DNA from: Paenibacillus tuaregi
Lineage (GTDB): Bacteria > Bacillota > Bacilli > Paenibacillales > Paenibacillaceae
Reading direction: 5' to 3'
Length of the DNA stretch: 64,000 nt
Assembly (NCBI RefSeq): GCF_900086655.1
Contig: NZ_LT575476.1
Span: 1,778,503 to 1,842,502 of the forward strand
Of this stretch, positions 4,624-27,777 are shown in pieces. How positions within the stretch are numbered: position 1 is the first letter of the stretch; every line of letters begins with the position of its first letter. The notes under the pieces were generated by a model. It was not told the origin of the DNA and did not search any database. It saw only the letters and a program-made list of their open reading frames with translations. The position numbers and the translations under genes are program-made.

Positions 4624-5050
4624 TGTTGCTTTGGAAAGTTTGACAGACAATCGCCGGCAAGCTTGTCTTGCGGGAGGAAAGTCCGGGCTCCATAGGGCAG
4701 GATGCTGGATAACGTCCAGTCGGCGCGAGCCGAAGGATAGTGCCACAGAAATGGACCGCCGATGGCCGTTCTATAGGAACGGATCAGGCAAGGATGGAAC
4801 CGAGGTGTAAGAGACCCCGAGGAGCGTTGGTGACTTCGTTCCTGGTAAACCCCATCTGGAGCAAGACCTAATGGGACGCAGCTTCCTCGCTTGCGAAGAG
4901 GCAGCCTTTGCCCGAGGCGCGTCTGGGTTGGTCGCTTGAGCTGTGCAGCAATGTACGGCCTAGATAGATGATTGTCGCTTGTAGTGGGAGGGTAGTTCCC
5001 GTCTGAACCACCAAAGAGCACAGAACCCGGCTTACGGAAGACTTTCCATA
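4624..5050 (+). ncRNA. rnpB: RNase P RNA, class A architecture
   Basis: RNA subunit of RNase P, which matures tRNA 5' ends. GGAAAGT at 4633-4639 pairs with ACTTTCC at 5041-5047 to form P1. The conserved core follows: GAGGAAAGTCCGGGCTCCAT near 4672, AGTGCCACAGAAA near 4739, a GGTAAACCCCATCTGGAGCA segment near 4843, TAGATAGATGATTG near 4962 and ACAGAACCCGGCTTA near 5020. The order CCGCCGATGGCC...GATCAGGCAAGG (P13/P14 region) and GGTCGCTTGAGC (P16/P17 region) follows the ancestral E. coli-like class A plan, not the class B plan of B. subtilis. The ends are set from P1 and the promoter and may be off by a few bases. Confidence 0.93.
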
Positions 5051-24750: not shown

Positions 24751-26082
24751 ATGAAAAAAATATTTGTCCTGGATACGAATGTATTGCTGCACGACCCCAA
24801 TGCGATTTTTGCCTTTGAAGAGCATGAAGTGGTTATACCTGCTGTAGTTCTGGAAGAGATTGATTCCAAGAAACGCAACCCGGAAGAGATCGGGAGGAAC
24901 GCCCGGGTGGTATCCAGATTGCTGGATGGACTAAGGGAGAAAGGGCAGCTTCATAGCGGAGTAACCTTGGATCAAGGTGGAACTTTGAAGGTGGAGCTGA
25001 ATCACAAGAGCTTTGTTAAAGTACAGGAAATGTTCGGGGAGGTCACGAATGATAACCGCATTCTTGCGGTTGCGCTGAACTATCATCTAGAGGAGCAGCA
25101 GTCGTTGAATCCCAGAGCTGTGATCCTGGTTAGCAAGGATGTGCTTGTCCGTATCAAAGCGGATGTGCTTGGGGTTCCTACGCAGGACTATCTAACCGAC
25201 CGGACTGCAGGTCCTGGTGATCTCTATTCAGGGTATTCACATATTAAGGTTCATCCTTCTATTATCGATAACTTCTACACGTACCGTTCTTTGCAGATTC
25301 ACACGCTGGGTCTGAATTTCGCCCTATACCCGCATGAGTTCGTCATTTTGAAGGATGAAATGGGAACCGGGAAATCGGCTCTGCTGAAGGTGAACGAGGA
25401 TGTTACCCAACTGGAGCCGTTGTATATGAGCAATGAGCCGGTCTGGGGCATCAGTGCCAGAAATGCACAGCAGCGCATGGCGCTTGAGCTTCTTCTAAAT
25501 GATGATATTCCTCTTGTGACGATCACAGGCAAGGCGGGAACAGGTAAGACTCTGCTCACCCTTGCCGCTGGGTTGCTCAAAATCGAGGATGAGCACAAAT
25601 ATAAAAAGCTCTTGATCGCCCGCCCGGTCGTGCCTATGGGCAAGGATATCGGTTATCTGCCAGGCGAGAAGGAAGAGAAGCTGCGGCCTTGGATGCAGCC
25701 GATTTATGACAATCTGGAGTATCTGTTCGATACCAAGAAAGCGGGTGATATTGATAAAATTCTGATGGGACTCGGCAGTATTCAGGTGGAGGCGTTAACC
25801 TACATCCGTGGCCGGTCGATCCCGGGCCAGTTCATCATTATAGATGAGGCCCAGAACTTAACCCGTCATGAAGTGAAGACGATTGTCTCGAGAGTGGGTG
25901 AGGGCAGCAAGATCGTATTGGTAGGTGATCCGGAGCAGATCGACCATCCTTACTTGGATTCGTCAAGCAATGGACTAACCTATCTGGTTGAGCGGTTCCA
26001 GAAGGAAGGCATCAGCGGACATATTACCCTTGAGAAAGGGGAACGTTCTAAGCTCGCGCAGGTGGCGGCGGATTTGCTGTAG
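24751..26082 (+). CDS. PIN-PhoH fusion ATPase (YlaK, PhoH2 type)
   Basis: A 443-residue protein. An N-terminal PIN nuclease-like domain begins MKKIFVLDTNVLLHD, with acidic residues D8, E35-E36 and a later ND and SKD. The PhoH ATPase domain follows, with Walker A GKAGTGKT at 260-267 and Walker B IIIDEAQN at 362-369. PhoH2 proteins are reported as RNA helicase/RNases. The start at 24751 follows GGTGGAGGGG; the frame runs further upstream but lacks a site. A second P-loop-like string, MGTGKSAL at about 204-211, precedes the true Walker A. Orthologue of B. subtilis YlaK by synteny. Confidence 0.92.
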   Translation: MKKIFVLDTNVLLHDPNAIFAFEEHEVVIPAVVLEEIDSKKRNPEEIGRNARVVSRLLDGLREKGQLHSGVTLDQGGTLKVELNHKSFVKVQEMFGEVTNDNRILAVALNYHLEEQQSLNPRAVILVSKDVLVRIKADVLGVPTQDYLTDRTAGPGDLYSGYSHIKVHPSIIDNFYTYRSLQIHTLGLNFALYPHEFVILKDEMGTGKSALLKVNEDVTQLEPLYMSNEPVWGISARNAQQRMALELLLNDDIPLVTITGKAGTGKTLLTLAAGLLKIEDEHKYKKLLIARPVVPMGKDIGYLPGEKEEKLRPWMQPIYDNLEYLFDTKKAGDIDKILMGLGSIQVEALTYIRGRSIPGQFIIIDEAQNLTRHEVKTIVSRVGEGSKIVLVGDPEQIDHPYLDSSSNGLTYLVERFQKEGISGHITLEKGERSKLAQVAADLL

Positions 26083-26499
26083 CGATAAGAAATTCTTGAT
26101 AACCGTTATGACCAGGATGATCCGGTTCATTGTGTGAATAGGAAGACTGAACAGCACCTTCGCTTAACGAGATGGTGCTGTTTGGGCTTGAATTTTTTGC
26201 TAAGGAAGACTGTTTTACATTAATAGGGACAAAGACGCAGGGAATTTGTTACAATACAACTATATAAAATTAACTTTAGAATTTAACCGATCTCAGCTTC
26301 GATCCCGAGTGATTCTGAAGAAGCGGAGCGTCCGCCTTGGTCTCCGAAATGTCCCTACTTTGATATCTAGTTCAAGCATTTTGGAGACAACAGGGTTGTA
26401 AGAACACTCGGCATCATCGCAGCTCCACAAAAGGGTAACCTTCACAAGTTCATTTTATATAGGAATGCAAACTTAAGGGCACGAGAGGAAGATCAGGTT
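26083..26499. other. 417-base gap between phoH and the solute-binding protein
   Basis: No coding region. It holds an imperfect terminator for phoH (AACAGCACC 26150-26158 with GGTGCTGTT 26174-26182, weak T tail), a possible promoter (GGGACA 26226, TACAAT 26250, 18-base spacer), and the folded element at 26301-26415 listed separately. The last 80 bases show only a small AAGG/CCTT hairpin and the ribosome site GAGAGGAAG before the GTG at 26500. Confidence 0.6.
26301..26415 (+). ncRNA. Candidate structured RNA or leader element (three-way junction)
   Basis: Three nested pairings are visible. The closing stem joins GATCCCGAGTGATTCT (26301-26316) to AGAACACTCGGCATC (26401-26415), about 14 pairs with one mismatch and one bulge. 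Hairpin 2 is GCGGA-GCG-TCCGC (26323-26335). Hairpin 3 joins GTCTCCGAAATG (26340-26351) to CATTTTGGAGAC (26377-26388), 12 pairs with one G-U and a 25-base loop. The strand is inferred from the downstream gene and upstream promoter. It could be a cis-regulatory leader, a small RNA or an intergenic repeat. It resembles no riboswitch class I can name. Confidence 0.45.
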
Positions 26500-27777
26500 G
26501 TGAAGCTAAGAAACCAATGGGTGCTTTTTGCTGTTCTGCTGCTTGCCTTGATCAGCTTGTCACCGGGTGAGGAGTCTGCACTGACCCAGCAAGAGCGGCA
26601 GGGGGGAACTGGCTTTGTGCCTCAGCCTAAGCAGAAGGCGGAGAAGGATACGGGGAGCATCCGGGTTGCGGTCTCGATGGAGCCTGAGGAATTCGACCGG
26701 CTGAATAAGTTGAATGAGCAGTTTATGATAAAGCACCAGTTGGAAGTGGAGCTTGTAAATATCGAAGAGAAAGAGGCTTATCAGACTTATAAAACCAGCC
26801 TGGAGCTGGGAGAGGCCCCGGATGTCCTGCTGCTGGATAATGCCTGGGTCAGGGAATTTGCCTCCAGAGGATATCTTCTGCCGGTGGAATCTTATTATTC
26901 TGGCCAGGCAGGAGTAGATTCGCTGAGTACTTCACTTAATCAGAATACGTGGAACGGGTACCTTTGGGGTGTTCCCAAGGATCACGATCCTTACGTGATC
27001 ATTTATTCGCCAGGCCGGCTTCAGGAACTGGGATTCAAACAGCTTCCCCAGACTCAGGCTGAGTGGGCCGAGCTTGCAAGCAGGTTCAAGAAGCGTAATC
27101 AGACCGCGGATTGGGTAGCGCTGAATATGAGTGATCCCTATGCGGATCTCTCTCTTTTGTGGCGTATGGGTCTGAGTATGAACTCCAAGAAGGATGAGGA
27201 TTTTCATCTAACACCTGGCATGAAAAGCGCCTTCTCCCATGTGGCCGAGTTCCGAAACCGCTTTTTTCCAGCAGCGGACAACCAGGCGGCCAGAGATCAG
27301 ATTTGGGACAAAATGGAGCGCGGGGAAATCTTGCTGTATGTAACCCCGGCTTCCACTTTTGATGCGGACGACAATCCTTCGCTCAAGCTTGAGTTCCCCT
27401 CGTCAGCTGATGGAGTCCGAATGCTCTGGCTGAAAGGCAGGAGTTATAGCTTGACCGCCCAAAGCCAGCACATTAAGACCGCAGGGGCATGGATTACTGT
27501 GATGACCTCCCCGGAGCAGCAAATCTCATCTTATAAAGAAGGAAACAAGCTTCCTGCAATGAAGGAGCTGTATCAGGATACCAGATTAAAGGAGCTGCAG
27601 GCATGGCTTAATGCTATTCAGAACCGGGGCAAATCCGGCGCGCTGCCGGTTGATGCGAAGCTTCCTGAACTTTTATCACAGTTCTCGGCTGAGGCTTCGG
27701 CTTATTTAAATGGTACGGGAAAGATGGAGTCTTTCATGGCTTCATTTACAAAATTGAACCATGCAGCTCGCCCTTAA
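26500..27777 (+). CDS. Orphan extracellular solute-binding protein (family 1)
   Basis: A 425-residue protein starting at GTG 26500. The N-terminus MKLRNQWVLFAVLLLALISL is a signal or anchor sequence without a lipobox cysteine, unusual for Gram-positive binding proteins. The mature part has the family 1 fold: SIRVAVSMEPEEF near 53, APDVLLLDN near 106, YLWGVPKDHDPYVIIYS near 148-164, and TAGAWITVMTSPEQQ near 326. Related proteins bind sugars for ABC importers. No permease or ATPase lies nearby, so the partner is elsewhere or the protein has another role, for example in sensing. It ends convergently with the next gene inside a shared terminator. Confidence 0.85.
   Translation: MKLRNQWVLFAVLLLALISLSPGEESALTQQERQGGTGFVPQPKQKAEKDTGSIRVAVSMEPEEFDRLNKLNEQFMIKHQLEVELVNIEEKEAYQTYKTSLELGEAPDVLLLDNAWVREFASRGYLLPVESYYSGQAGVDSLSTSLNQNTWNGYLWGVPKDHDPYVIIYSPGRLQELGFKQLPQTQAEWAELASRFKKRNQTADWVALNMSDPYADLSLLWRMGLSMNSKKDEDFHLTPGMKSAFSHVAEFRNRFFPAADNQAARDQIWDKMERGEILLYVTPASTFDADDNPSLKLEFPSSADGVRMLWLKGRSYSLTAQSQHIKTAGAWITVMTSPEQQISSYKEGNKLPAMKELYQDTRLKELQAWLNAIQNRGKSGALPVDAKLPELLSQFSAEASAYLNGTGKMESFMASFTKLNHAARP

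Follow-up and report, generated by a model that had tools for sequence, protein, structure and literature searches.

RUP of pneumococcus is a non-coding repeat of 107 bp present in about 100 copies, and its description proposes mobilisation by IS630-Spn1 (PMC2229807). BOX, also of pneumococcus, is modular and highly folded; its description judges it parasitic and able to affect co-transcribed genes (PMC3049150). The Bacillus cereus group carries bcr1-bcr3, described as MITE-like intergenic repeats that often lie in UTRs or within operons (PMC3446304), and Bcr1 is listed with a conserved fold in a further study (PMC2267715). For REPIN/RAYT and IS200/IS605, subterminal folds and targeting of the lagging-strand template are described (PMC6006769). 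IS630-family elements insert into TA and duplicate it (PMC2170065).

We analysed a window of 64,000 nucleotides from Paenibacillus tuaregi (contig C4:1778503-1842502 of genome G000, which comprises 5.67 Mb and is 95.67% complete). A gap of 417 bases there separates a PhoH/PIN gene, ending at 26082, from a solute-binding-protein gene with a GTG start at 26500. An initial annotation of this DNA had outlined a 115-base fold in the gap, at 26301-26415, and considered it too complete to be chance. This held: at -43.0 kcal/mol, against a mean of -28.0 (s.d. 3.2) for 200 dinucleotide shuffles (z -4.75), the fold was matched in stability by 0 of the 200, and its closing stem, GCGGA/GCG/TCCGC hairpin and long hairpin were all recovered. 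The complement was nearly as stable (-40.3 kcal/mol, z -4.03). The proposed boundaries, in contrast, had to be redrawn. The unit spans 26263-26459 and folds as a whole, inverted ends included, at -58.4 kcal/mol (z -4.90). Its features are as follows.

26261..26262: left target-site duplication TA, with C at 26260, target CTAG (sequence; two-ended copies; nested insertions)
26263..26459, + strand: whole mobile element, probable MITE of type A, 197 bp (alignment of 30 copies with unrelated flanks; fold)
26263..26276, + strand: left terminal inverted repeat TATAAAATTAACTT, 1 mismatch to the consensus TATAAAATGAACTT (IS630-family ends are similar)
26298..26419, + strand: conserved structured core (match to covariance model R1, 104.5 bits)
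26305..26316, + strand: 5' strand of closing helix P1, partner 26401-26411 (both-side changes in 8 of 11 pairs)
26317..26328, + strand: conserved asymmetric internal loop GAAGAAGCGGAG (near-invariant columns; 2.6% shared divergence among 79 own copies)
26323..26335, + strand: 5-bp hairpin GCGGA/GCG/TCCGC, alternative to helix P2 (fold; pair counts)
26338..26390, + strand: long apical hairpin P3, with CTAG (26367-26370) in its loop (fold; covariation)
26446..26459, - strand: right terminal inverted repeat, AAGTTCATTTTATA on the + strand (sequence, alignment, end scan)
26460..26461: right target-site duplication TA, with G at 26462 (sequence; two-ended copies)

The boundaries come from an alignment of 30 copies with their flanks, in which homology starts and stops sharply at the inverted repeats TATAAAATGAACTT and AAGTTCATTTTATA; one of the 30, L024, has lost its left end. 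A pattern scan of 26050-26530 reported no terminator, in agreement with the earlier opinion that the fold is not one. The scan was also silent on a hairpin, AACAGCACC...GGTGCTGTT at 26150-26182, which lies on the 3' side of PhoH together with a T run (26193-26198) and is probably that gene's terminator. Elsewhere in the window, a class A RNase P RNA occupies 4635-5049.

Searching the genome with 26281-26440 returned, from 40 scored of 141 candidates, the window copy and at least 39 others, 86-92% identical along most of the query. The covariance model raised the number of core copies to at least 143, a lower bound, as 150 of 2474 candidates were scored. An exact 29-base core pattern was found in 69 stretches, all in Paenibacillus records. 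An intergenic repeat family had been one of the options offered in the initial annotation, along with a suggested recurrence in Paenibacillus, and these counts bear out both.

The end motif, at one mismatch or fewer, matched 206 times in the genome, compared with 5 times for a reversed control. Both ends (four mismatches or fewer) were present in 90 of the 143 core copies, 79 of which measure 189-198 bp. Among these 90, TA is present to the left of 74, to the right of 78 and on both sides of 68, the commonest flank pair being CTA..TAG (28/90). Two copies have TG on both sides, which is what a true target duplication predicts. Two elements of a sister type, type B (ends TATAAGTTGAACT), have inserted into type A copies, both at the apical-loop CTAG and with TA duplicated; the P3-loop CTAG of the window element is this same spot.

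The presence of two ends, a TA duplication and ends that match those of an IS630-family element argue for a MITE and against a cis-regulatory leader of the solute-binding-protein gene, as had been suggested for this locus. A leader would be well placed, as the element ends 40 bases before the GTG and one promoter-like site precedes it at 26226-26255, with 0.8 expected by chance. Set against this are at least 142 further core copies and the structure of the element itself, an insertion with target duplication. Copies also occupy every gene arrangement (++ 79, +- 29, -- 17, -+ 14, and 4 with one side unknown; neighbour genes were simple ORFs of at least 100 aa). No steady placement before related genes was seen: when the genes downstream of two-ended copies were sampled (10 of the 51 eligible, taken from 20 drawn at random minus those cut by the locus end), all ten fell into different Pfam families. 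We regard the leader as scarcely credible.

One or both type A ends are missing from 53 of the 143 own copies, which have one end, sister-like ends or none, and some end-less cores stand in short tandem groups. L242 (G000:C4:4428251-4428803) and L209 are such tandem arrays, with periods of 213 and about 280 bp, and core spacings of 211-213 bp recur in G010, G013 and G031. Conversely, 32 of the 100 end matches listed, of 206, lie more than 160 bases from any core. Read 150 bases inward, with facing ends sought within 2.45 kb, these appear to be shortened or internally deleted copies, nested copies or single ends. The few facing ends at 1.2-2.4 kb all carry 3 mismatches except two, one of which is a known intact copy. 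Several two-ended derivatives measure 56-135 bp and have lost most or all of the core.

L304, L308, L299-L301 and L310 are internally deleted derivatives that measure 70-113 bp and keep both ends. Three of about 70 bp (L300, L301 and L308) have, by eye, an apparent common junction at a CAGC repeat at the hairpin base, which would seem to reflect recurrent slippage or a second mobile form. At G000:C4:2184252-2185516, two full copies (L019 and L023) stand in opposite orientation about 0.9 kb apart and could act as a composite unit. A blastn search of the element against phages and plasmids gave no match.

Similar ends on a larger element were found around L342, where an IS630-family element of 1134 or 1221 bp (two right ends are possible) encodes a protein with Pfam DDE_3 and HTH_33. 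Its ends are TATAAGTTGAACTTTAAATC and TATAAGTTGAACTCTC; the left one agrees with type B at 14/14 positions and with the type A consensus at 12/14, the right one at 13/14 and 11/14, respectively. Elsewhere in the family, IS630-family elements carry other ends, and the search yielded no autonomous element with exact type A ends. PF13358 transposases were present in 16 of 39 genomes of the genus sample, and relatives of one IS630-family transposase in 78 of 295 family genomes, the own genome not among them. In G000, as far as its 95.67% complete assembly goes, neither an IS630-type transposase (PF13358) nor a match to the L319 protein was detected; this enzyme may have been lost. The title of a 1991 study by Tenzen and Ohtsubo names 5'-CTAG-3' for IS630. 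The locus thus has the terminal inverted repeats in common with an IS630-family element, the TA duplication and the CTAG preference of an IS630/Tc1-mariner-type MITE, and the mobilising transposase that is usual, though not obligatory, in the same genome was not detected in G000. Our preferred reading, which we consider reasonably probable, is a non-autonomous MITE of this type that is mobilised in trans and whose core aids its spread.

The core was then compared across 31 chosen sequences (the window copy, four own copies and 26 relatives). The three-way junction of the initial annotation proved to be one of two exclusive pairings and is the minimum-energy one in the window; across relatives it is the less supported. 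An extended hairpin (CG.UCGC with GCGA.CG) competes with the 5-bp hairpin, all other helices being common to both. The column pair 36-107 of the extended hairpin is UA in 21 sequences, CG in 9 and unpaired in 1, compared with AU 11, GU 8, GC 6 and 6 unpaired for the column pair 30-36 of the variant. In the alignment, the window copy is short of one C of the extended helix, and the 5-bp hairpin is its minimum-energy fold. On these sequence comparisons, the extended hairpin with the asymmetric loop is the favoured pairing across relatives.

The initial annotation had staked its fold on homologues with compensatory changes, and these exist. With the extended hairpin, 93.0% of cells are paired and both-side changes occur in 15 pairs, for a total of 112 cells. 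Its covariation score was 0.331 versus 0.154 in shuffles and was reached by 0 of 500 shuffles; the compensatory-cell count was likewise reached by 0 of 500, and the number of further pair types by 24 of 500. Sliding the structure along the alignment gave scores of at most 0.137, and the 5-bp-hairpin variant, which has most helices in common with the extended form, scored 0.319. Judged by compensatory changes across genera, the core, to which the conserved 12-base loop GAAGAAGCGNAG belongs, is a structured family. It corresponds to no family in Rfam 15: RNase P was the sole match in the whole window, and within 26090-26510 the sole match was MicC (E 2.4), which lies on the opposite strand, beyond the core. 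A CUGANGA motif, which we take to be hammerhead-like, was considered and then dropped. On the canonical strand G-U outnumbers A-C by 29 to 11, and C>T is more frequent per site than G>A in the stems and loops of the 79 own copies, but not in their subterminal parts. Strand-biased mutation could yield such a G-U excess, so it does not decide between RNA and DNA.

Querying with the consensus gave matches in 46 of 117 genomes, G000 included. Among the matches listed, alignments over positions 1-194 occurred in G000 only, one copy in G009 aligned as two segments (1-71 and 76-158), and the remainder covered mainly the inner part, about 47-144. Model R1, with at most 8 candidates scored per genome, was positive in 38 of 398 Bacilli genomes, each of them a member of the same family or of its order, Paenibacillales, and gave none in the other 360; from this we infer that every sampled member of the order is positive. 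Eight chosen genomes held from 5 to 139 copies each. By eye, most inspected copies in other genera lack one or both type A ends; many lie within locus-specific inverted repeats and a few have TATATAAGTT-like ends. Type A ends therefore do not explain the whole family, given that most of these copies and 53 of the 143 own ones lack both ends or one of them. In the open-access literature on Paenibacillus repeats, MITEs and structured RNAs, the family was absent among the matches listed, subscription journals being largely outside this scope.

One orthologous place was compared in 16 genomes of another genus: as judged by model and eye, 6 have a complete core, 6 another copy in its stead, 1 a core short of its long arm and 3 no core; R1 matched in 13 of the 16, in agreement with the calls by eye. 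This one place provided no clean empty site for end-less copies. Six of the genomes (L376-L381) have an old core that is cut at the conserved internal loop and continues into another copy, confirmed by the model, as if the loop were a recombination point. In the four genomes L372-L375, where the core is complete, about 40 extra bases between P2 and P3 are hairpin-capable by eye and would give a branched form.

Divergence was followed in 79 type A copies, namely the 86 of 143 within end and length limits minus 7 outliers. Shared divergence was 4.5% in the ends, 5.0% in the core and 2.6% in the core loop; the subterminal parts reached 13.1% and the apical loop 11.8%. Per 1000 letters, private changes numbered 12.2, 6.2, 7.4, 6.1 and 8.4 in the same order. 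Shared variation thus avoids the core and ends, and private changes are not depleted in the core, although the counts are small (43 in the core) and leave room for weak constraint on residents. This suggests that constraint acts on the spreading lineages rather than on resident copies, which seem free to decay.

These data bear on the idea that the core acts as a host transcript, in UTR processing, stability or as a small RNA, and that the mobile ends merely spread it. The strong covariation would fit, as would the cores without type A ends, partly in tandem, and the occurrence of the core in other genera. Gene context leans the same way: of 37 copies sampled in three other genera, 27 have genes of their own direction on both sides and 4 have opposite ones on both sides, and the own genome has 79 versus 17. 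A host function is, however, difficult to reconcile with private mutations undepleted in the core, or with one orthologous place at which 10 of 16 genomes have no core, a broken one or another copy in its stead. That all ten sampled downstream genes belong to different Pfam families further weakens a host regulator, and we think a host RNA quite improbable.

The copies are strongly oriented. Left of 2.6 Mb, 62 of 72 are on the plus strand, and to the right 56 of 71 are on the minus strand, so that 118 of 143 lie along replication (leading). The same holds for 78 of the 90 two-ended type A copies and for 22 of the 25 assignable shortened derivatives, 4 of 29 being ambiguous. GC skew, computed on the retrieved DNA, stays positive as far as the 2.4-Mb bin and is negative from 2.8 Mb onward, apart from a last small positive bin, and its flip coincides with that of copy orientation. 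With GC skew marking the origin, the favoured orientation makes the canonical strand the lagging-strand template. Neighbour genes are themselves mostly leading (176 of 223), and where both lag, 4 copies follow the genes and 3 follow replication; the two causes can thus be separated only in convergent or divergent contexts. There, leading copies number 36 of 43, or 31 of 37 once near neighbours are merged (p 4e-5).

For four genomes of a different genus, 123 of the 443 matches were listed, and 99 of these agree with replichore halves, taken as contig halves. Only 2 of 16 contexts there are convergent or divergent, one each way, which leaves genes and replication unseparated. In G030, strand bias is weak by eye.

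A simpler version of events would be a plain MITE, in which the core is a passenger hairpin from the founder, conservation reflects descent from few masters, and the orientation bias arises because copies facing transcription or replication are selected against. Ends and a TA duplication are enough for mobility, the 56-135 bp derivatives keep both ends with most or all of the core gone, and most neighbour genes are leading. A passenger would nevertheless not be expected to show compensatory changes across genera, a leading bias where genes set no direction, or shared variation that is low in the core and not in the apical loop. We hold this version to be unlikely. The polarity could also mark a chromosome-organising motif kept by orientation selection, for which KOPS and Chi are the comparison. 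The element is multicopy and replication-polar in its own genome and in four genomes of another genus, and all 38 positive genomes belong to one order. However, copy number ranges from 5 to 139 among 8 genomes, copies get shortened or lost, and polarity is about 80-83%, not near 100%; such a motif appears very improbable.

We return to the preferred reading, a MITE whose core aids its spread. An IS630/Tc1-mariner-type transposase, since lost from this genome, would act in trans by recognising the 14-bp inverted ends, and the element would be inserted by cut and paste into the TA of CTAG. As the two 14-bp ends are alike, a transposase that reads nothing else would be blind to orientation, and the bias should come from the interior, that is, from the core or the subterminal parts. 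The subterminal parts differ between the two ends and could also be its source. As its most likely role, the core would help the element to spread: the canonical strand or its RNA would fold into the hairpin with the conserved asymmetric loop and bias or assist transposition, or survival at the replication fork. Since the canonical strand is the lagging-strand template, a folded single strand is the natural candidate and RNA the alternative. Resident copies would drift and decay afterwards.

A bolder version makes the structured module itself a propagation device, whose one-strand fold couples insertion to fork direction and which has combined with, or captured, the ends of DDE transposons such as IS630. 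We put this forward tentatively, as less than probable. If true, mobility would depend on an internal fold as well as on ends, and a single-strand-structure logic would be joined to cut-and-paste transposition.

MITEs are usually seen as two ends around an expendable interior. In this family the interior is what is shared most widely: it covaries across genera, is tied to replication direction and reaches up to about 140 detected copies per genome. Should the core be needed for spread, the family would allow structure-dependent mobility to be tested in a DDE element. It is numerous in Paenibacillus-type genomes and absent from Rfam, and its members could be mistaken for riboswitches or small RNAs.

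Among the systems introduced above, REPIN/RAYT and IS200/IS605 resemble the Paenibacillus element in their working only, as it has inverted ends and a TA duplication, and no Y1 (RAYT) transposase (PF01797), the cognate enzyme of REPIN/RAYT, was detected in G000. BOX is likewise a strongly folded repeat, and differs in having ends linked to ISSpn2. The bcr1-bcr3 repeats are also intergenic, MITE-like and from Firmicutes; bcr1 was compared by description only, and R1 was silent in the 360 sampled Bacilli genomes outside the positives, which all belong to this order. With RUP the element has in common a short non-coding repeat, IS630-family-like ends, TA targets and insertions into other mobile elements. 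RUP differs in its length of 107 bp and its pneumococcal IS partner, compared with about 195 bp, a core that covaries across genera and no partner IS detected in G000. In mechanism RUP comes nearest, in host and appearance bcr1.
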